DNA of 9,385 nucleotides from a bacterium (GTDB taxonomy: Bacteria; Blakebacterota; Blakebacteria; Blakebacterales; Blakebacteraceae), in the NCBI GenBank assembly GCA_025774615.1, contig JALGVQ010000114.1, forward strand, positions 1-9,385. The letters run 5' to 3'. Every line of letters begins with the position of its first letter. Position 1 is the stretch's first letter. Made by a program: the position numbers and the translations under genes. Of this stretch, positions 2-9,385 are shown piece by piece. Below the pieces are notes generated by a model. The model was not told the DNA's origin. It saw only the letters and a program-made list of their open reading frames with translations, and searched no databases.

Positions 2-856
2 CATCGACCGACAACGCTGGCCGAGGCATGCGAACTCGGCCGATCACTCGGGGATCAGGTCTGCTACCTGGCAGGCGGTACCGATCTCTTCGTCGATCTC
101 AAACAGAAGCGGCGTACGACCGGTCACGTCATCTCCCTGGCGACCATACCCGGTCTGGACGGGATCACCATCGACAACGGATCACTTCGTATCGGCGCGA
201 TGACAAGACTCACCGGGGTCGGGAGATCAGAGGAAGTGAAACAGGCCTTTCCCGCCCTCAGCGACGCGGTCTCGGCGATCGGTTCAGAGCAGATCCGCAA
301 TCAGGGAACTATCGGCGGTAATTTCTGCGGCGCCGTTCCATGCGCCGATTCTCCCCCGATCTGTATCGCGGGAGAGGCCCGCCTGAGGATCAGTGACGGA
401 ACCAGTGAGAGGACTCTACCCGCCCAGGAGTTCTTCTCCTCACCGCGGGTGAACGCCCTCATGCCGGGTGAAGTGCTCATGGAGGTCACGATCCCCGACC
501 AGCCCGTTCATTCCGGGGCCAGTTACCAGCGGTTCTCACTGCGACACGGTTCGGCGCTTGCGGTGGCTTCGGTAGCGGCGAGGCTCGTCGTGGAGGATGG
601 AATGATCGGGGACGCGCGGGTAGTCCTGGGAGCGGTCGCTCCGATACCACTCCCGGCGGTCGGTTGTGCCGGCGAACTGATCGGTCAGGAACCATCGGAG
701 GATCTCTTCCGGAGGGCGGCCGCCGTTGCCGCCTCGGAAGCCAGACCGCTCACCGACATCAGGGGAAGCGAGGGATTCCGGCGCGACATCGTGGAGGTGC
801 TGACTCTCAGGGCATTGCAGGAGGCCATGGTGAGGGCCGGGGGAGTGAGAAGATGA
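2..856 (+). CDS. FAD-binding subunit of xanthine dehydrogenase-family Mo hydroxylase (5' partial)
   Basis: Medium (FAD) subunit of a molybdenum hydroxylase; it passes electrons between the [2Fe-2S] clusters and an external acceptor. The frame is open to the left edge, and the first visible residues (HRPTTLAEACEL) match the usual N-terminus of the family around residue 8-10, so only a few codons are missing; 284 residues are visible, close to the normal 280-300. Seen directly: the FAD-contacting AGGTDL motif at visible residues 24-29 and TIGGN at 103-107, followed by a C-terminal CO-dehydrogenase-flavoprotein-like region. Three cysteines cluster after TIGGN (109, 114, 121). The roughly 40-residue loop that carries a [4Fe-4S] cluster in 4-hydroxybenzoyl-CoA reductase HcrB is absent. 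The stop overlaps the next gene's start as ATGA, implying translational coupling and one complex. Family call is firm; substrate is unknown. Confidence 0.93.
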   Translation, partial: HRPTTLAEACELGRSLGDQVCYLAGGTDLFVDLKQKRRTTGHVISLATIPGLDGITIDNGSLRIGAMTRLTGVGRSEEVKQAFPALSDAVSAIGSEQIRNQGTIGGNFCGAVPCADSPPICIAGEARLRISDGTSERTLPAQEFFSSPRVNALMPGEVLMEVTIPDQPVHSGASYQRFSLRHGSALAVASVAARLVVEDGMIGDARVVLGAVAPIPLPAVGCAGELIGQEPSEDLFRRAAAVAASEARPLTDIRGSEGFRRDIVEVLTLRALQEAMVRAGGVRR

Positions 857-3681
857 GTGACCAGTTCCAGGTGACCTTCACCATCAACGGTCAGAATCGA
901 ACGGTGAGCACCCGCCCCGGAGAGACCCTCCTCGACGTCATCCGGGATGATCTCGGACTCACCGGCACCAAGGAAGGCTGCGGTCTCGGTGACTGCGGCG
1001 CCTGCACGGTACTCGTGGACGGCCGCGCGGTCACTTCATGCATCATCATGGCGATCGAAGTCGAGGGATCCGAGATCATTACGGTAGAGGGTCTTTCCCG
1101 GAACGGGGACCTCCATCCCCTTCAGAAATCGTTCGTCAAGCATGGAGCCCTGCAGTGCGGCTTCTGCACACCGGGCATGCTGATGTCATCGATAGCACTC
1201 CTCGAACGGAATCCCGACCCATCGCGTGAGGAGATCATTGACGCGCTGGGCGGTAACCTCTGCCGGTGCGGTTCCTACGACCGGATCGTCCGCGCCATCC
1301 AGTCATGGCGGGAATACGAGTCGACACCACTCGACACTGCTCCCCGGCCCGATGATGAACGGGACCAGGAGCGTGACCTGGATGTCGTGAGTCATGGTGT
1401 CACCCGCTACGACGGACCGGACAAGGCCACCGGGAGAGCGATATACATGGCCGATATCCATCTCCCCGGCATGGTGTACGGCAAGATACTGGGCAGTCCG
1501 ATTGCGCACGGCCTGATCCGCGGCATCGACACCAGCCGCGCGCGCGCCCTCCCCGGGGTGCTGGCGGTCATCACGGGTGAGGATGTTCCCGACACCCTGT
1601 ATGGAGTGAGTCCCGCCCGTTACGACGAGCATGTGCTGGCAAAGGAACGGGTGCGCTACGTGGGTGATGAGGTCGCCGCGGTCGTGGCGCTCGATGAGGA
1701 CACCGCCGAGCAGGCGCTGGCACTGATCGACGTGGAGTATGAGGAACTCCCCGCTCTCTTCACACCCGAGGAGGCGATGGCCGCCGACGCCCCTGCCATC
1801 CATCCGGACGTTCCCCGGTTCGCCGGGAATATCAACACAACGGTGGATTGGGACTTCGGCGATGTCGAGAAGGGCTTCGAAGAGGCCGACATCATCCTCG
1901 AGGAACGTTACATCGGCAACCGTACTTATCAGGCTCCGATCGAGCCGCACGCCGCGATCGCCCGGTGGGAGCATCATGGCCCGAAGTTGACCCTCTGGTC
2001 TTCGACCCAGGTGCCCCACTACCTCCAGCATATGGTCTCCCGGGTCTTTGACATCCCGATGGGTGATATCAGGGTCATAAGACCGGCCGTGGGAGGCGGT
2101 TTCGGGGTGAAGGCGGAGACAACGCCGCTCGAACTGTGTGCCACGATCTTCGCCCGGATGACCGGGCGTCCGGTCATGATGCGGTACACCCGGGAGGAGA
2201 TGTTCATCCACTTCCGTGGTCGACACAAACAGTACCTCGACCTGAAGATCGGCGCGAAGAAGGACGGGACCATCACGGCGGTCGATTCGAAGGTGGTGCT
2301 GGATGGAGGCGCCTATACTTCATTCGGCGTGATCACTGCCTATTACGCGGGAGCGATGCTCCCGACACTCTACAAGTTCGACAACTACCGGTACCGGGGC
2401 CTGCGGGTGTTCACCAACCTGCCCGCAAGCGGCGCTATGCGGGGCCACGGGGTTCCACAACCCCGCTTCGCGTTCGAGTCACTCCTCGACATGATCGCCG
2501 AGGAGCTCTCGATCGACCCGATCGAGATCCGCCTGCGCAACGCCATGGAGCCCGGCATCCTGACCTGCAACGACCTCGATATCTCATCGTGCGAATTCAC
2601 CGCTACGCTCGAGCAGGCGCGGGACGTGTCCGGATGGAAAGATAAGAAGGGCAAGCTGCCGCCGGGGAAAGGGATCGGTGTCGGCTGCGGAGGCTTTGTC
2701 TCGGGAGCGGGGTATCCGATCTATCGCTCCAACTTCCCCCACTCGAACGCCATCATCCGCGTACATGAGGATGGCCGTGCCGTATCGCTCCATATCGCGG
2801 CATCGGAGATCGGTCAGGGGAGTGACACGGTCCTGCCCATGATCGCGGCTGAAGAACTCGGCATCCCCTACGAGCGGGTCTGGATGGCCGAATGTGACTC
2901 CACCCTGAGTCCGATCGACCTTGGCTCCTACTCCAGCCGGGTCACGCTGATGGCCGGTAACGCGGTACAGATGGCCGCTGCTGAGGTGAAGAGCAGGCTG
3001 CTGGAGGTCGCCGGGCGGCATCTCGACTGCGACCCGGGAACACTGCAGATCATCGATGGTCGGATCACTCCCGATCCTGATTCCGACATCGGACTCGACT
3101 GGGACGAAGCGGCAAGGATCGCCTTCTCCGAATCGGGCCCGCTGGTGAGCACTGGGCACTACCGCCCACCGGAGGGATTGGGTGGAAAGGCCAAGGGGAG
3201 CGCGGTCGGGACCTCGCCTGCGTACAGTTTCTCCACCGCCATCTGCGAGGTGAGCGTCGACCTGGAGACCGGGTATGTCACGGTCGAGAAGTTCACCGAC
3301 TTCAGCGATGCCGGGACAGTGATCAATCCGGTCACCTTCCACGGTCAGGTTGAGGGAGGGATCACGATGGGGATCGGTGAGACCCTCTTCGAAGACACGG
3401 TATTCGACGAGAAGGGTGTGCTCATCAATCCCGACCTGCACGCCTACTTGATCCCGACGATCGGTGATATTCCGCATATCCATTCAGAAGCGGTCGAGAG
3501 CTACGAACCGCGTGGGCCGTTCGGCGCCAAGGAGATCGGTGAAGGGTGCCTGTTGCCGATCCTCGGCGCCATAACGAACGCGATCCATGATGCCTGCGGA
3601 GTGCGGGTGAATGATCTGCCGATCACGCCTGAGAAGATACTGAAGGGGATCAGGGCACAGAAGGGTGGTGGAACAGGATAA
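853..3681 (+). CDS. Fused [2Fe-2S] / molybdopterin-binding subunit of xanthine dehydrogenase-family hydroxylase
   Basis: A 942-residue catalytic subunit that would hydroxylate (or reductively dehydroxylate) an organic substrate at a Mo centre and pass electrons through two [2Fe-2S] clusters to the FAD subunit encoded just upstream. Residues 1-75 are a plant-ferredoxin-type domain with Cys43, Cys48, Cys51 and Cys63. Residues 80-155 are the helical [2Fe-2S] domain with QCGFC (Cys102, Cys105) and LCRC (Cys137, Cys139). From about 180 to the end lies the Mo domain: GGGFG at 414-418, MRGHGVPQ at 529-536, EIGQG at 652-656 and GAKEIGEG at 891-898, where Glu897 is in the position of the catalytic glutamate. 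Size and domain order resemble the FAD-less aldehyde oxidoreductase MOP, but here a separate FAD gene overlaps by ATGA. The ATG at 853 was chosen because it follows GGGGGAGTGAGAAG and begins the ferredoxin fold directly. The C-terminal region (GAKEIGEG, LPITPEK) recalls 4-hydroxybenzoyl-CoA reductase HcrA more than classical XdhB; a selenium-dependent xanthine dehydrogenase is an alternative. Substrate not assignable. Confidence 0.93.
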   Translation: MSDQFQVTFTINGQNRTVSTRPGETLLDVIRDDLGLTGTKEGCGLGDCGACTVLVDGRAVTSCIIMAIEVEGSEIITVEGLSRNGDLHPLQKSFVKHGALQCGFCTPGMLMSSIALLERNPDPSREEIIDALGGNLCRCGSYDRIVRAIQSWREYESTPLDTAPRPDDERDQERDLDVVSHGVTRYDGPDKATGRAIYMADIHLPGMVYGKILGSPIAHGLIRGIDTSRARALPGVLAVITGEDVPDTLYGVSPARYDEHVLAKERVRYVGDEVAAVVALDEDTAEQALALIDVEYEELPALFTPEEAMAADAPAIHPDVPRFAGNINTTVDWDFGDVEKGFEEADIILEERYIGNRTYQAPIEPHAAIARWEHHGPKLTLWSSTQVPHYLQHMVSRVFDIPMGDIRVIRPAVGGGFGVKAETTPLELCATIFARMTGRPVMMRYTREEMFIHFRGRHKQYLDLKIGAKKDGTITAVDSKVVLDGGAYTSFGVITAYYAGAMLPTLYKFDNYRYRGLRVFTNLPASGAMRGHGVPQPRFAFESLLDMIAEELSIDPIEIRLRNAMEPGILTCNDLDISSCEFTATLEQARDVSGWKDKKGKLPPGKGIGVGCGGFVSGAGYPIYRSNFPHSNAIIRVHEDGRAVSLHIAASEIGQGSDTVLPMIAAEELGIPYERVWMAECDSTLSPIDLGSYSSRVTLMAGNAVQMAAAEVKSRLLEVAGRHLDCDPGTLQIIDGRITPDPDSDIGLDWDEAARIAFSESGPLVSTGHYRPPEGLGGKAKGSAVGTSPAYSFSTAICEVSVDLETGYVTVEKFTDFSDAGTVINPVTFHGQVEGGITMGIGETLFEDTVFDEKGVLINPDLHAYLIPTIGDIPHIHSEAVESYEPRGPFGAKEIGEGCLLPILGAITNAIHDACGVRVNDLPITPEKILKGIRAQKGGGTG

Positions 3682-3703
3682 ACAGGGTGCCTTCGTGAGA
3701 TAC

Positions 3704-3730
3704 ATCCTCTACTATCCTGAGTCAGAGGAT
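3704..3730 (+). other. Upstream leader hairpin
   Basis: ATCCTCT at 3704-3710 is the exact reverse complement of AGAGGAT at 3724-3730, giving a 7-bp stem with a 13-nt loop. It lies after the hydroxylase stop codon and before the riboswitch-like fold. There is no T-run after it, so it is not a standard intrinsic terminator. It may be a weak end-of-transcript or RNA-stability structure for the upstream operon, or chance. Confidence 0.35.
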
Positions 3731-3739
3731 CTGATTCGA

Positions 3740-3848
3740 CAGAGCTCCGAGCCGAAGAACCTGGGTCCCGCCCCGCGGGATACGGTTCGAGGCCGACAGG
3801 GTAAGGCTGGAAACGGCCTTGCCTCCCGTGTTTGGAAAGGAGTGCCTG
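3740..3848 (+). promoter_or_regulatory. Probable Moco riboswitch in the moaA leader
   Basis: Leader RNA that by position and fold fits the Moco RNA motif, the proposed molybdenum-cofactor-sensing riboswitch found upstream of moa operons. Stems seen in the sequence: P1, CAG 3740-3742 with CTG 3846-3848, and GCTCC 3744-3748 with GGAGT 3839-3843; P2, GCC 3751-3753 with GGC 3791-3793, GAACC 3757-3761 with GGTTC 3784-3788, and TCCCGC 3766-3771 with GCGGGA 3775-3780; P3, GGTAAGGCTG 3800-3809 with CGGCCTTGCC 3814-3823, ten pairs capped by a GAAA tetraloop. A GNRA tetraloop is an expected element of this class. The GGAG in P1 is the moaA ribosome binding site, so ligand-stabilised P1 would repress translation. 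That a structured RNA exists here is well supported; the Moco identity rests on memory of the family plus the downstream genes and was not tested against a covariance model. Confidence 0.68.
3834..3842 (+). promoter_or_regulatory. moaA ribosome binding site
   Basis: GGAAAGGAG with its AGGAG core ending 8 nt before the GTG at 3851. It decides the moaA start and is also base-paired in the 3' strand of riboswitch stem P1. CTCC at 3823-3826 could pair with the same GGAG as an alternative masking helix. Confidence 0.75.
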
Positions 3849-3850
3849 CT

Positions 3851-4831
3851 GTGAGTCTGGTCGACCGTTTCCAGCGATCGATCTCCTATCTCCGGTTATC
3901 GGTGACTGATCGGTGCAATCTGCGCTGTCGTTACTGCATGCCGGCTGACGGCCCTGATCTGATACCCCGGGAAGAGCTGCTCACGAGGGAAGAACTGATC
4001 CGACTCACCCGGATCTTTCTGGATCTCGGAATCCGAAAGGTTCGCGTCACCGGCGGTGAACCATTCATGCGGGGGGGATTACTCGATCTCCTCAGAGAGT
4101 TGCGTGACCTCTCCGGTCTCGATTCACTCCACATCACCACCAATGGCCTGGGAATGGCCTCCCATGTCCCCGCGCTCCGGGATATCGGTATCGCGGGGGT
4201 CAATCTCAGTCTCGACACACTCGACCGACACACCTTCGAGAAGATAACCGGCAGGGATGGTCTCGATGATGTGCTGGAGACATTCCACACCCTGCTCGAT
4301 CACGACCTCACGGTAAAGATCAATACGGTAGTACTGGGGGAATGGAACTCCGATGAGATCGGCCGCATGGCGCGTCTTGCCCGTGATCATCAGGTGGAGG
4401 TCAGATTCATAGAGGAGATGCCCCTGATCGGAATTGCGCGGGCATCGACGATCCATTGGGATCAGGAACGGATCATCGACCGGCTCACCTCGGAACTGGG
4501 TACTCTTCGGCCGTTGCCGCCGAACGGCGGTACAGCCCGCCGCTTCACCATCGCCGGATTCACCGGCACGATCGGCATGATCGCCGGACACACCCGTTCG
4601 TTCTGCTCGACCTGCGACCGGATCCGGATCACCGCCTCCGGTCTCATGAAGACCTGCCTCTACGGGCCCGACACGATCGATCTGAAGCAGATGCTCCAGG
4701 ATGGAGTGGACGATAACGCCATCGGAGCCGCCGTGTCAGAACAGGTATCGAACCGGTCATCTGACGGATTCGAGGCTCACTCCGGATGTGGCCCCCGGGC
4801 TTCCGATTGCATGTCATCGATCGGTGGGTAG
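3851..4831 (+). CDS. moaA: GTP 3',8-cyclase MoaA
   Basis: Radical-SAM enzyme that converts GTP to 3',8-cyclo-GTP, the first step of Moco synthesis, in the cytoplasm; its product goes to MoaC, encoded two genes downstream. The protein has 326 residues, the usual length. Seen: the SAM-cluster motif CNLRCRYC (Cys22, Cys26, Cys29), the SAM-binding GGEP at 68-71, the second cluster as CSTC plus a later cysteine (Cys252, Cys255, Cys269) in the family pattern CxxCxRxRxTxxGxxxxCL, and the conserved C-terminal Gly-Gly in MSSIGG. The GTG start at 3851 is chosen because AGGAG lies 8 nt upstream and MoaA N-termini begin just before the SxxYLRxSVTDRCN segment. The open frame continues upstream to 3665 but that part is the riboswitch leader. 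First gene of the Moco operon; the stop is overlapped by, or one base from, the start of the transporter. Confidence 0.95.
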   Translation: MSLVDRFQRSISYLRLSVTDRCNLRCRYCMPADGPDLIPREELLTREELIRLTRIFLDLGIRKVRVTGGEPFMRGGLLDLLRELRDLSGLDSLHITTNGLGMASHVPALRDIGIAGVNLSLDTLDRHTFEKITGRDGLDDVLETFHTLLDHDLTVKINTVVLGEWNSDEIGRMARLARDHQVEVRFIEEMPLIGIARASTIHWDQERIIDRLTSELGTLRPLPPNGGTARRFTIAGFTGTIGMIAGHTRSFCSTCDRIRITASGLMKTCLYGPDTIDLKQMLQDGVDDNAIGAAVSEQVSNRSSDGFEAHSGCGPRASDCMSSIGG

Positions 4832-6020
4832 CTTGAGCGGTTTCCGTTCCGAGCACCGGAATTCAATCGCGCTCACCGAATGGGCAGGCGCCGTGGGTGA
4901 TCTCGGCATCCTGTTACCCTTCGCGTTCGCGCTCGTGATCTTCAACGGATTCCCTCCTGAGCGCCTTCTCTTCCTGTGGGGACTCACCTACATAGTGACA
5001 GGCTGGTACTACCGCGTCCCGGTATCGGTCCAGCCTTTGAAAGCTATGGCGGTGATCGCGATCGCCTCGGGGTTCGGTGTATCTGAACTCGCCTCCACAG
5101 CTCTCTTCTACGGTGTTCTCATGATCTCTCTGTCGGTGACCGGTGTGATCCGGATACTCCAGCGTATCTTCAGCATGTCGCTGATCAGAGGGATCCAGCT
5201 TGGACTCGGATTTATTCTCTTCCATACCTCTGTCACCATGGTCACCACCAATGGACTCCTCCTCGGAGGGGCGAGTGTGAACCTGCCGTTGAACCTTCTG
5301 CTGACGCTGCTTACGATCGTGATCATCGCCCTGCTCCAGTCACGCCGGGACCTTCCAGCAGCACTTATGGTAATCATCGTATCTATAATTATTGTTTACA
5401 TTTATGGAACTCATATAATGCCATTCAAGGACAGCGAAGGCCTCCTCCAATTCACGCTGCCCCAGCTCGGTTTTCTCGGCCCCGCACTGGTAGTATTGAT
5501 GATCCCGCAGTTGCCGCTCACACTGGGAAACGCGGTATATGCCGCCTCGGATGCCTGCTGCACGTTCTGGCCAGATCGCTCTGCCCGTACCACCCCCACC
5601 CGTCTCGGTCTCTCGATCGGTATCAGCAATGTCGCGATCGGTCTGGGCGGAGGATTCCCGATCTGCCACGGCGCGGGAGGGATCGCGGCGCACGCCCGGT
5701 TCGGCGGCAGAACCGGAGGCACCACAATGCTCCTCGGCGGCATCCTGCTGCTCTGTGCCGTCATCAGACCGCTCACCGACCTTCTCTTCGCCATCCCCAT
5801 ACCGGTGCTGGGCGCCCTCCTCATCTTCACCAGCTGGAAGCTGATGGTTCTCGTCCGCGACCTGACAGGAGCTCCCGAGATCATCACCGCTTCCCTGGTC
5901 GGCCTGCTCTCATACATCACGCGCAACCTCACCATCGCGCTCCTGGCCGGATTCCTGATCGAGCGGGGCCTGCGTCTCGCTCATAACCGTTTCAATATCT
6001 TCAGAGGTGAAAACGCATGA
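4824..6020 (+). CDS. MOT1-family molybdate transporter
   Basis: Polytopic inner-membrane protein of about 398 residues with roughly ten hydrophobic segments, of the MOT1 branch of the SulP-related molybdate/sulfate transporters. Seen: the N-terminal EWAGAVGDLG-LLPF segment (19-33), PVSVQPLKA at 66-74, PQLPLTLGNAVYA at 228-240 and FPICHGAGGIAAH at 278-290 followed by RFGGRTGG; these match the hallmark motifs of MOT1 proteins. It would import molybdate for the Moco enzymes around it; sulfate or tungstate cannot be excluded. The start is uncertain: GTG 4824 overlaps the end of moaA and TTG 4833 lies one base after the moaA stop with a weak GGTGGG before it. Both imply coupling to moaA. The stop overlaps the next ATG as ATGA. 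A short AT-rich stretch at about 5369-5420 encodes an Ile/Val-rich membrane segment (residues 182-199) and stands out from its surroundings. Confidence 0.88.
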   Translation: MGSLSGFRSEHRNSIALTEWAGAVGDLGILLPFAFALVIFNGFPPERLLFLWGLTYIVTGWYYRVPVSVQPLKAMAVIAIASGFGVSELASTALFYGVLMISLSVTGVIRILQRIFSMSLIRGIQLGLGFILFHTSVTMVTTNGLLLGGASVNLPLNLLLTLLTIVIIALLQSRRDLPAALMVIIVSIIIVYIYGTHIMPFKDSEGLLQFTLPQLGFLGPALVVLMIPQLPLTLGNAVYAASDACCTFWPDRSARTTPTRLGLSIGISNVAIGLGGGFPICHGAGGIAAHARFGGRTGGTTMLLGGILLLCAVIRPLTDLLFAIPIPVLGALLIFTSWKLMVLVRDLTGAPEIITASLVGLLSYITRNLTIALLAGFLIERGLRLAHNRFNIFRGENA

Positions 6021-6934
6021 TCGATGTCAGTCCGAAGTCGAACACGCTCCGCTACGCGAGGGCGGAGGGCAGGCTCCACTGCGGGGCGGGAACACTCGAA
6101 GCCATACGAGCCCGGGAGGTGCCGAAGGGGGATGTTCTGGAGATAGCTCGTGCCGCCGGGATCACTGCCGCGAAGCAGACCGCCGATACCATCGTCTTCT
6201 GCCATCCCATCCCGCTCGATTGGGTGGAAGTCATGCTCACGGTGAAAGAGGACCATCTCGCGGTCACCGCGGAAGTGAGATCGGTCTGGAAGACCGGTGT
6301 CGAGATGGAGGCCCTGACGGCGGTGACCGCCGCTCTGCTCAATGCCTGGGACATGGTGAAGCCGCTTGATGAGGCACTCACGATCGAAGGGATCCAGCTC
6401 ATCGAAAAGAGAGGCGGCAGGAGCGACTGGAGAGACACCTTCACCGAACCGATCCGATGCGCCGTATTGGTGATCTCCGACTCGACCCACGCGGGTGAAC
6501 GTGAAGATCGGTCTGGCCTGCTCATCCGGGAATCCCTGCAATCTCAGCCGGTCGATGTGAGTGTCTATGAGGTCCTGCCTGATGATCGGACGATCATCGC
6601 TCAGAAACTGACGGAGCTGGCGGACAGCGGGATGATAGACCTGATCCTCACCACCGGAGGCACCGGTCTGGGACCGAGGGACGTCACCCCTGAAGCCACA
6701 ATGGATGTCATCGATCGGGAAGTGCCCGGGATCACGGAGATGGTTCGGGCGTACGGTTCGGAGCGCACCCCCCATGCCATGCTCTCCCGTTCCCGGTGCG
6801 GCCAGAGGGGAGAGACCCTCATCATCAACCTGCCCGGCAGCAGTCGCGGCGCAAAGGAGAGCATGGATGCTCTTCTGCCGGGGCTCCTGCATGCCTTCCC
6901 GATGATCCGCGGCGGAGGACACGACCAGAAATGA
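6017..6934 (+). CDS. Bifunctional MoaC-MogA fusion (cPMP synthase / molybdopterin adenylyltransferase)
   Basis: 305 residues, two Moco enzymes in one chain. Residues 1-135 are MoaC, which rearranges 3',8-cyclo-GTP to cyclic pyranopterin monophosphate: MIDVS start, AAK (Lys53), CHPI (Cys62, His63), KTGVEMEAL with Glu96 and Glu98, DMVK (Asp112, Lys115) and KRGG (Lys131), so the expected catalytic residues are present. Residues 146-305 are a MogA/MoaB domain, which adenylylates molybdopterin before metal insertion: VLVISDS at 150-156, TTGGTGLGPRDVTPEA at 212-227 and NLPGSSRG at 271-278. The linker is only about ten residues. GAGGTGA lies 6 nt before the ATG, and the start overlaps the transporter stop as ATGA. 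The two halves act at different points of the pathway (before and after MPT synthase), so fusion probably secures co-expression rather than channelling. Such MoaC/MogA fusions are known in other bacteria. Confidence 0.95.
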   Translation: MIDVSPKSNTLRYARAEGRLHCGAGTLEAIRAREVPKGDVLEIARAAGITAAKQTADTIVFCHPIPLDWVEVMLTVKEDHLAVTAEVRSVWKTGVEMEALTAVTAALLNAWDMVKPLDEALTIEGIQLIEKRGGRSDWRDTFTEPIRCAVLVISDSTHAGEREDRSGLLIRESLQSQPVDVSVYEVLPDDRTIIAQKLTELADSGMIDLILTTGGTGLGPRDVTPEATMDVIDREVPGITEMVRAYGSERTPHAMLSRSRCGQRGETLIINLPGSSRGAKESMDALLPGLLHAFPMIRGGGHDQK

Positions 6935-6947: not shown

Positions 6948-8162
6948 GTGATCCCGATCGAAGAGGCGCTTGCTATCATCAACAGGCATGAGCCGCCGAT
7001 GGTGACCGAAAGCGTGCAGCTGAGCGAGGCGCTCGACCGGGTCATCACTGAAGATATCACGGCCCCGGAGCCTCTGCCCCGTTGCACGAACAGCGCCATG
7101 GATGGATTTGCCGTCTTCTGGAACGATGTCGAGACGTGGAGTGGAGACGCGCCACCCTCTCTTACCGTAGTCGGGGAGAGCCGGGCGGGAGAACCATATC
7201 ACGATACGGTACTTCCGGGAGAGGCGGTACGGATCAGCACCGGCGCAATGCTGCCCGACGGAGCCGACACGGTGGTGCCCCTGGAGGATGTGGATGACAC
7301 CGGTGATGCGATCATTATCCGGTCGGCAACAGGGCAGCACCAGCACGTCCGGTTCGAGGGTGAAGAGATCCGTACCGGAGACACCCTTCTTTCGAGCGGC
7401 GCCAGACTGACCCCGTCATCACTCGGTCTCCTGGCCTCACTTGGAGTCGGGAACGTGATGGTCTCGACTCCCCCGGCTGTGGGTATCGTGGTGACCGGTC
7501 ACGAACTGGCCGGAGCAGGCGCTGAGATCAAACCATGGCAGGTCCGGGATTCGAACGCCCTCATGCTCGAGACTGCTATACGGAAAGCAGGCGGCAGGGT
7601 CGCCAGCATGAGCAGGTGCGGCGACCTGATCGAGGAGACCGAAGCCGCCATCACCACAGCCGCCGACTCCTCACAGATCGTTCTCGTATCGGGTGGCGTA
7701 TCCGTGGGCCCCCACGATCTGGTGAAGCAGGCCGCCGGGGGGGCCGGATTCAAGCAGATATTCTGGAGGGTGAGTCAGAAACCGGGCAAACCTATGTTCT
7801 TCGCCCGGCGGGATGATCAGCTCCTCTTCGGTCTGCCCGGCAACCCGGTGGCGGTGCTAAACTGTTTCGCGTACTACATCCACCCCCTGCTCCAGAGGAT
7901 GCAGGGCAGACCGTTCAGCTGGGAGACATTGTCGGGTACGATCGACTCCCCATACAAGAACCGGGGAGACCGGAGCTTCTTCCTCCGGGTGGCAGTCAGC
8001 AGAGAGCATCCCGAACCGGTCACCATCACTCCACTCCGGAAACAGGGCTCACACATGCTCTCATCGATGACAGACGCCGACGGATTCCTGCTGATCGAAC
8101 CGGGTCATGCCCTGGAAGCAGGAGATGAAGTCATCGTTCACCTCTATCCCTGGAGGTCGTGA
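6948..8162 (+). CDS. moeA: Molybdopterin molybdenumtransferase MoeA
   Basis: Inserts molybdate into adenylylated molybdopterin, releasing Moco and AMP; acts directly after the MogA domain encoded upstream. The 404 residues equal the usual MoeA length and all three main regions are present. Seen: NSAMDGFAV at 48-56 (Asp52), the STGAMLPDGAD segment at 97-107, TGHEL at 183-187 (often TGDEL in other MoeA), QVRDSNA at 198-204, SGGVSVGPHD at 248-257 (Asp257), KPGKP at 278-282 and GLPGNPVAV at 295-303. The C-terminal domain IV extends to the end, so it is not truncated. The start is GTG 6948, 13 nt after the moaC-mogA stop, with GGAGG well placed. The 3' end runs directly into the MOSC gene: the GGAGG at 8152-8156 sits within the last MoeA codons. 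Confidence 0.96.
   Translation: MIPIEEALAIINRHEPPMVTESVQLSEALDRVITEDITAPEPLPRCTNSAMDGFAVFWNDVETWSGDAPPSLTVVGESRAGEPYHDTVLPGEAVRISTGAMLPDGADTVVPLEDVDDTGDAIIIRSATGQHQHVRFEGEEIRTGDTLLSSGARLTPSSLGLLASLGVGNVMVSTPPAVGIVVTGHELAGAGAEIKPWQVRDSNALMLETAIRKAGGRVASMSRCGDLIEETEAAITTAADSSQIVLVSGGVSVGPHDLVKQAAGGAGFKQIFWRVSQKPGKPMFFARRDDQLLFGLPGNPVAVLNCFAYYIHPLLQRMQGRPFSWETLSGTIDSPYKNRGDRSFFLRVAVSREHPEPVTITPLRKQGSHMLSSMTDADGFLLIEPGHALEAGDEVIVHLYPWRS
8152..8156 (+). promoter_or_regulatory. Ribosome binding site of the MOSC gene
   Basis: GGAGG inside the end of moeA. It lies 8 nt before GTG 8165 but only 2 nt before GTG 8159, so it favours 8165 as the true start. Confidence 0.65.
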
Positions 8163-8164
8163 CC

Positions 8165-8602
8165 GTGGGGACCGTGGAAGCTCTCTCGATCAGCACAGGC
8201 CGGGGAATGGTGAAGGAGCCTGTATCCGAGGCCGAGTTCATCGCCGGACACGGCATCTCGGGTGACGCTCACGCGGGCGACTGGCACCGTCAGGTATCGC
8301 TGCTGCCGGGTGAGAGCATCGATCGGATGAAGGAGAGCATGCCGGAGATTGCCCAGGGCGCCTTCGCGGAGAACATCATCACGCGGGATCTCGATCTGTC
8401 GCTGATACATGTCGGAGACACGATCGTCATCAACAACGAAGTCGTCCTGGAGGTCACCCAGATCGGCAAGGAGTGTCACTCCGCCTGCGCCATCCAGGAA
8501 GTGACCGGAGAATGCATCATGCCGGTCGAAGGTGTTTTTGTCCGGGTCATCAGGGGTGGCGCGGTCAAGCAGGGTGATCTGATAATTCTGGCAGGTCGAT
8601 AA
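8165..8602 (+). CDS. Stand-alone MOSC-domain protein
   Basis: 145-residue single-domain protein of the MOSC family (Moco sulfurase C-terminal type), last gene of the Moco operon. Seen: an N-terminal strand MGTVEALSIS typical of short MOSC proteins, GISGDAHAGDWHRQVSLL at 30-47, FAENI at 67-71, and GKECHSAC at 101-108 followed by GECIMPVEGVFVRV at 115-128, with Cys104, Cys108 and Cys117 as candidate sulfur-carrying residues. The domain family is linked to binding, sulfuration or transfer of Moco; the exact role of short MOSC proteins is not established. The neighbouring hydroxylase family needs a terminal sulfido ligand on Mo, so a role in sulfur or cofactor delivery is an attractive inference. 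GTG 8165 is preferred over GTG 8159, which overlaps the moeA stop, because of the spacing from GGAGG and because it gives a family-typical MGTV start. Confidence 0.9.
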   Translation: MGTVEALSISTGRGMVKEPVSEAEFIAGHGISGDAHAGDWHRQVSLLPGESIDRMKESMPEIAQGAFAENIITRDLDLSLIHVGDTIVINNEVVLEVTQIGKECHSACAIQEVTGECIMPVEGVFVRVIRGGAVKQGDLIILAGR

Positions 8603-8666: not shown

Positions 8667-9059
8667 TCACTCGTCCAGATCGGTATCCAGCCACGCCAGG
8701 GCTTTCTTCCGCGAGCGGAACGTTCCATACGTCACATCGGAACCCTGAAGACTCCGGAATGTCTCGAACATCCGGCCCAGGCCGAAGCCGACATCAGAGG
8801 CGAATACCAGCGCGGTCATCCCGCCCTTCCTGTCTGACCCGGTGTGTTGCTGAGACACACCAGCCAGCTGCTGGGGGACAGTGCCCGAGATATGTTCGAA
8901 GGTCGCGGCAGAAAGATCCCACAATACGCGGTCCGTCGGATCACCGTCGTAAAATTCCTTAATCGCCTGGCTGACCTGTTCACCGGTGAATTCACCACTG
9001 ACGGTGAATATGGTCAGGTCTCTCTTCTGATCTATTTCAATCTCGATTGCTCCGGACAT
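8667..9059 (-). CDS. SpoIIAA/STAS-like small protein
   Basis: 130-residue soluble protein with no signal peptide or membrane segment. It looks like the widespread uncharacterised group of STAS/SpoIIAA-like proteins: a beta strand and FTVSGEFTGEQV near the N-terminus (18-29), VLWDLSAATF at 45-54, an alternating strand-helix segment TALVFASDVGFGLGRMFE at 82-99 and a C-terminal FRSRKKALAWL at 114-124. I see no catalytic motif. Known STAS proteins bind nucleotides or partner proteins; the target of this one is unknown. GAGGAG lies 6 nt before the ATG at 9059 (plus positions 9066-9071). It starts 28 nt after the DUF35 gene, so the two are probably co-transcribed. It is convergent with the Moco operon and probably unrelated to it. 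Confidence 0.72.
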   Translation of the reverse strand: MSGAIEIEIDQKRDLTIFTVSGEFTGEQVSQAIKEFYDGDPTDRVLWDLSAATFEHISGTVPQQLAGVSQQHTGSDRKGGMTALVFASDVGFGLGRMFETFRSLQGSDVTYGTFRSRKKALAWLDTDLDE

Positions 9060-9087: not shown

Positions 9088-9385
9088 TCAGGTGCTTGTT
9101 TTCGACCACGTCGTGCCCGATTTTTCCAGACTGTAATAGACTTTGATGTTCTCTTCCTCATCGAAGATCTGTGGCACTACCTGCAGATCCATACCGATTG
9201 CGATCTCATCATCAGGAACCGTTTCGCCGAACCACGCCAGCGCCCTTCCACCTTCTTCGAGATCGACCACGCCCACCGTGTAGGGGACGACATCCTCGAA
9301 GCCGGTCGGGGCAGCCACGACCTTCGTGAACGTATGCAGAGTGCTTCTGCCGCTCAGTTCGACGAACTCGAAATCGCCACTCATG
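9088..9385 (-). CDS. DUF35 OB-fold acyl-CoA-associated protein (5' partial)
   Basis: C-terminal OB-fold half of a zinc-ribbon/OB-fold (DUF35) protein, a family usually encoded beside thiolases or other acyl-CoA enzymes and thought to bind acyl-CoA or assist the partner. Seen: EFVELSGRSTLHTFTKV, VPYTVGVVDLEEG, and IGMDLQVV followed by YYSLEK, the normal order for the domain; 98 residues are visible. A Met codon lies at 9382-9384, but full-length members have a cysteine-rich zinc ribbon directly before the FVELSGRGT-like strand, so I treat this Met as internal and the gene as running off the window. The one remaining base would be C in the third position of the preceding codon, compatible with Cys. 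The C-terminal tail GTTWSKTST is short and Ser/Thr-rich. Confidence 0.82.
   Translation of the reverse strand, partial: MSGDFEFVELSGRSTLHTFTKVVAAPTGFEDVVPYTVGVVDLEEGGRALAWFGETVPDDEIAIGMDLQVVPQIFDEEENIKVYYSLEKSGTTWSKTST

Follow-up and report, generated by a model that had tools for sequence, protein, structure and literature searches.

The RNA described here is related to the Moco RNAs. In the homologous leader of Escherichia coli, the ribosome-binding site lies in P1 and moaA expression is repressed when Moco is made (PMC2408646). The same study proposed that RNAs of this kind that lack the P3 stem sense the tungsten cofactor (Tuco), but it did not demonstrate direct binding of the cofactor to the RNA and left room for a protein factor (Regulski et al. 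2008, PMC2408646). According to a paper of 2024, the exact metabolite has still not been identified (PMC10845959). Our search of the literature for later ligand-binding evidence found nothing useful, and no later test of the question raised in 2008, whether P3 decides between molybdenum and tungsten, was found in the searchable literature. A Moco RNA has also been annotated in Caldithrix abyssi, before the gene set Cabys_2007-2011 (PMC5317091).

The window analysed here is a stretch of 9,385 nucleotides from a bacterium of the Blakebacteraceae (contig JALGVQ010000114.1). Its plus strand encodes the FAD-binding subunit of a molybdenum hydroxylase (2-856, cut by the window start; PF00941 and PF03450) and a fused FeS and molybdopterin-binding subunit of a xanthine dehydrogenase-family hydroxylase (853-3681, from family profile matches), followed by moaA for GTP 3′,8-cyclase (3851-4831; TIGR02666, 325.5 bits where 284 are required, with the alignment starting at residue 3), a MOT1-type molybdate transporter (4833-6020; PF16983, 146.7 bits), a moaC/moaB fusion (6017-6934; NF002947, 374 bits against a cut-off of 285), moeA (6948-8162; MoeA_N, MoCF_biosynth and MoeA_C domains) and a MOSC-domain protein (8159-8602; PF03473). 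Because the frames from moaA onward overlap or nearly abut, the rest of the operon is predicted to follow moaA. On the minus strand, a 130-residue protein that matches neither Pfam nor NCBIfam (8667-9059) adjoins an OB-fold ChsH2-type protein (9088-9384). From the hydroxylase stop codon (3681) to the moaA GTG (3851) there is a gap of 169 nucleotides (3682-3850), as the initial annotation had it.

That annotation took the gap for a Moco-like structured leader, and a covariance-model scan bears this out: RF01055 matches 3733-3858 of the plus strand from end to end (model positions 1-135) with 73.8 bits (E 8.7e-17), the gathering score being 36 bits, and among the four Rfam matches listed it is the only one above its own gathering score. 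Profile searches thus place an RF01055 element on the 5′ side of genes for molybdopterin synthesis and transport; the element is real but slightly longer than the bounds first assigned to it (3740-3848). The minimum free energy of the leader is -59.8 kcal/mol, whereas shuffled sequences average -45.4 kcal/mol (z -3.8), and none of 200 shuffles is as stable. One copy of RF01055 was found in the host genome, of which the assembly is 82% complete. The spacing between the hydroxylase gene and the element is 51 nucleotides and no sigma-70-like promoter was found in the gap; given this spacing, the element may be internal to a longer transcript.

The covariance model and the fold agree that the aptamer is closed by P1 (3744-3748 with 3839-3843), with covariation at the 3744/3843 pair. 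P2 (3751-3793, from the covariance model and the leader alignment) is interrupted and contains a receptor-like bulge, CCUGGG (3760-3765) opposite UACGG (3781-3785). The joint J2/4 that leads to P4 is the five nucleotides CGACA in the covariance-model alignment (3794-3798), and so the family's P3 stem is absent and the RNA does not belong with the P3-bearing (Moco) type. P4 (3799-3824) has eleven pairs (3799-3809 with 3814-3824) capped by a GAAA tetraloop (3810-3813), supported by the covariance model and the fold, and P5 (3826-3835) has two conserved pairs recognized by the covariance model and an alignment of 31 leaders. The moaA Shine-Dalgarno sequence AAAGGAG (3836-3842), identified from sequence and structure, lies eight nucleotides 5′ of the GTG and overlaps the 3′ strand of P1, which contains its GGAG. 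Of the three stems described initially, the GAAA-capped helix is thus real, although with eleven pairs rather than ten and under the wrong name, P3, for what the published nomenclature calls P4; the short P5 had been overlooked. Nor is the RNA as divergent as first supposed: its core is canonical, and what departs from the family is the tetraloop receptor of the genus, CCUGGG where CCUAAG is usual. The P4 GAAA loop is kept, and the full receptor is CCUGGG/UACGG here versus the usual CCUAAG/UAUGG, CUAA being found at this position in 91 of the 120 RNAs surveyed below. The sister leader (L009) combines CCUGGG with UAUGG. A literature search on tetraloop-receptor variants found nothing useful.

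In a same-genus genome (G001), the same leader follows the same hydroxylase at a distance of 52 nucleotides and precedes moaA. Compensatory changes, which had been named as a check on the initial reading, are present in the stems of related leaders: with six alignable leaders, aligned by plain MAFFT and read against a structure drawn from the window sequence, both sides have changed in 13 of 30 pairs, and with 31 leaders of many lineages, in an alignment that was fitted to the structure and hence is biased toward it, both sides have changed in 22 of 30 pairs and 90% of cells are paired. The smaller alignment and the covariance model were used because, with 20 leaders, MAFFT by itself did not align P2 correctly. 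None of 500 shuffles reached the observed compensatory counts or covariation score in either set; in the set of 31 the covariation score is 0.54, compared with 0.07-0.12 when the partners are slid. The P5 pairs are nearly invariant in the 31 leaders and therefore uninformative for covariation. The structure is conserved, and these results bear also on the idea that the gap encodes extra N-terminal residues of MoaA and folds only incidentally, to which we give almost no credence. The frame is indeed open from 3665 to 4831, back to a GTG at 3665, but MoaA models begin at the product of the GTG at 3851, the moaA frame is closed through the leader in G001, and the RF01055 score and the covariation speak against it as well; it was rejected. 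We are highly confident that the element is an RF01055 riboswitch of the P3-lacking subclass acting as a translational OFF switch.

With its Shine-Dalgarno sequence partly within P1, moaA is predicted to be under translational OFF control, together with MOT1, moaCB, moeA and the MOSC gene. Plentiful molybdopterin cofactor, in its molybdenum or tungsten form, would be bound by the RNA and stabilize P1; stabilized P1 would hide the moaA Shine-Dalgarno sequence, less moaA product would be made, and the coupled transporter and cofactor genes would fall along with it. The riboswitch probably shuts off cofactor synthesis in this way when cofactor is sufficient; we infer what it binds, which way control runs and that the downstream genes are coupled. 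By folding, freeing the Shine-Dalgarno sequence costs 2.4-4.4 kcal/mol (free-site ensemble versus unrestricted ensemble), a gap small enough that ligand binding could decide the outcome, and no terminator-like site was found in the gap, which fits translational control. Counting against the mechanism, the ligand-free structure of minimum free energy is without P1 when longer stretches are folded, and in G001 (L109, 3715-3790, G001:C505) the likely start codon of moaA, an ATG, is some 50 nucleotides downstream of the Shine-Dalgarno sequence in P1, so that the expression platform is not identical there. A short frame with its own ATG, closed by a TGA, overlaps this start codon in G001, where control may instead use another start or a leader peptide. 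Alternatively, a protein might sense cofactor status and bind the structured leader, which would then not be the sensor itself, as the 2008 study, having no direct binding to report, left possible (PMC2408646). The size of the RNA and its conserved junction resemble those of metabolite aptamers and the structure is common to very distant bacteria, which makes a protein sensor improbable.

Since P3 is absent, the RNA falls in the proposed Tuco subclass, and the ligand of the same mechanism could be specifically the tungsten cofactor. The host carries a single gene of the AOR family, tungsten-type and short in frame (L107, G000:C97, 1560-3368), and an intact gene of this kind is present in a family member (G003, L108). 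The host gene, in the assembly, is interrupted by one in-frame TGA, codon 398, at a position occupied by glycine in the intact relative; at other places in the window TGA is an ordinary stop codon, and the interruption is either a nonsense mutation or an assembly error. No AOR gene was found in the same-genus genome, yet it keeps a P3-lacking leader, and the switch of the window sits between a molybdenum hydroxylase and a molybdate-type transporter operon, both of which argue against tungsten. No modA was found in the four genomes of the family, and MOT1 may accordingly be the main importer, although the assemblies are only 63-85% complete and among the four MOT1 was seen in the host (G000) alone.

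RF01055 was searched in 389 genomes, most families being represented by a few, and AOR was sought in those with matches; P3 was classified in 120 RNAs by eye and unblinded, with doubtful cases folded, because an automatic caller gave false P3 stems, that of the window's own RNA included, owing to the ability of the P2 sequence to pair with itself. Short-frame AOR genes (<700 residues) are present in 39 of the 71 genomes with only P3-lacking RNAs, in none of the nine with only P3-bearing RNAs and in three of the four with both. Of the P3-bearing-only genomes, four have no AOR and five have only a long-frame class (≥700 residues), which we suspect resembles YdhV, a molybdenum protein of E. coli. 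The difference in short-frame AOR between P3 classes is significant by Fisher's test (p 0.002 with genomes as units, 0.02 with families), but the frame-length boundary was set once the data had been seen, the genome lists were typed by hand and relatedness was controlled only coarsely (6 and 47 families), and when any AOR is counted instead the difference is not significant (p 0.27). The association of P3 with AOR is suggestive. Tandem RF01055 copies on one strand were noticed in two of the genomes, two in G293 (L200 and L208, G293:C74:8956-9359) and two in G292 (C20:147005-147777), and G377 has six matches in one 1.6 Mb genome.

Within this survey, the rule of 2008 is borne out in one direction. 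Among the P3-lacking-only genomes, 19 of 71 have no AOR that was found and 8 more have only the long-frame class; with 27 of 71 thus without the short-frame gene, a missing P3 is a weak predictor of tungsten use. One of these, G076, has the same cassette (RNA, moaA, MOT1, moaCB and moeA) and no AOR was found in it at 98% completeness. The absence of AOR is no proof that tungsten is not used, because other tungsten enzymes, some formate dehydrogenases among them, cannot be distinguished by family. The absence of P3, the short-frame genes of the host and its family member and the survey counts together make the tungsten cofactor a serious candidate, its chances falling somewhat short of even; the interrupted host gene, the AOR-less same-genus genome, the molybdenum setting and the 27 exceptions stand on the other side. 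There is nearly an even chance that this P3-lacking RNA senses Moco and not Tuco, in which case, against the proposal of 2008, the absence of P3 would be no mark of tungsten specificity.

Publications already cover the riboswitch family, its subclass without P3 and the cassette of genes, and the find is in itself ordinary. The RNA resembles the P3-lacking subclass of RF01055 (PMC2408646) in matching the whole model, in having P1, P2, P5 and a GAAA-capped P4 with no P3, and in its placement before molybdopterin synthesis genes; it differs in its receptor (CCUGGG/UACGG in place of CCUAAG/UAUGG) and in adjoining genes that look like molybdenum metabolism. By gene content, the locus is like that of C. 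abyssi, in which a Moco RNA is followed by moaA, MOT1 (PF16983), moaC, moeA and MOSC, except that here molybdenum hydroxylase genes lie directly on the 5′ side. As in the E. coli moaABCDE leader (PMC2408646), P1 holds the ribosome-binding site and moaA is predicted to be switched off at translation; unlike the RNA of the window, the E. coli RNA bears P3, and the E. coli operon, moaABCDE, has no MOT1. Set beside these systems, the locus is of value for testing the P3 rule, being a P3-lacking switch between a molybdenum hydroxylase and a molybdate-transporter operon.
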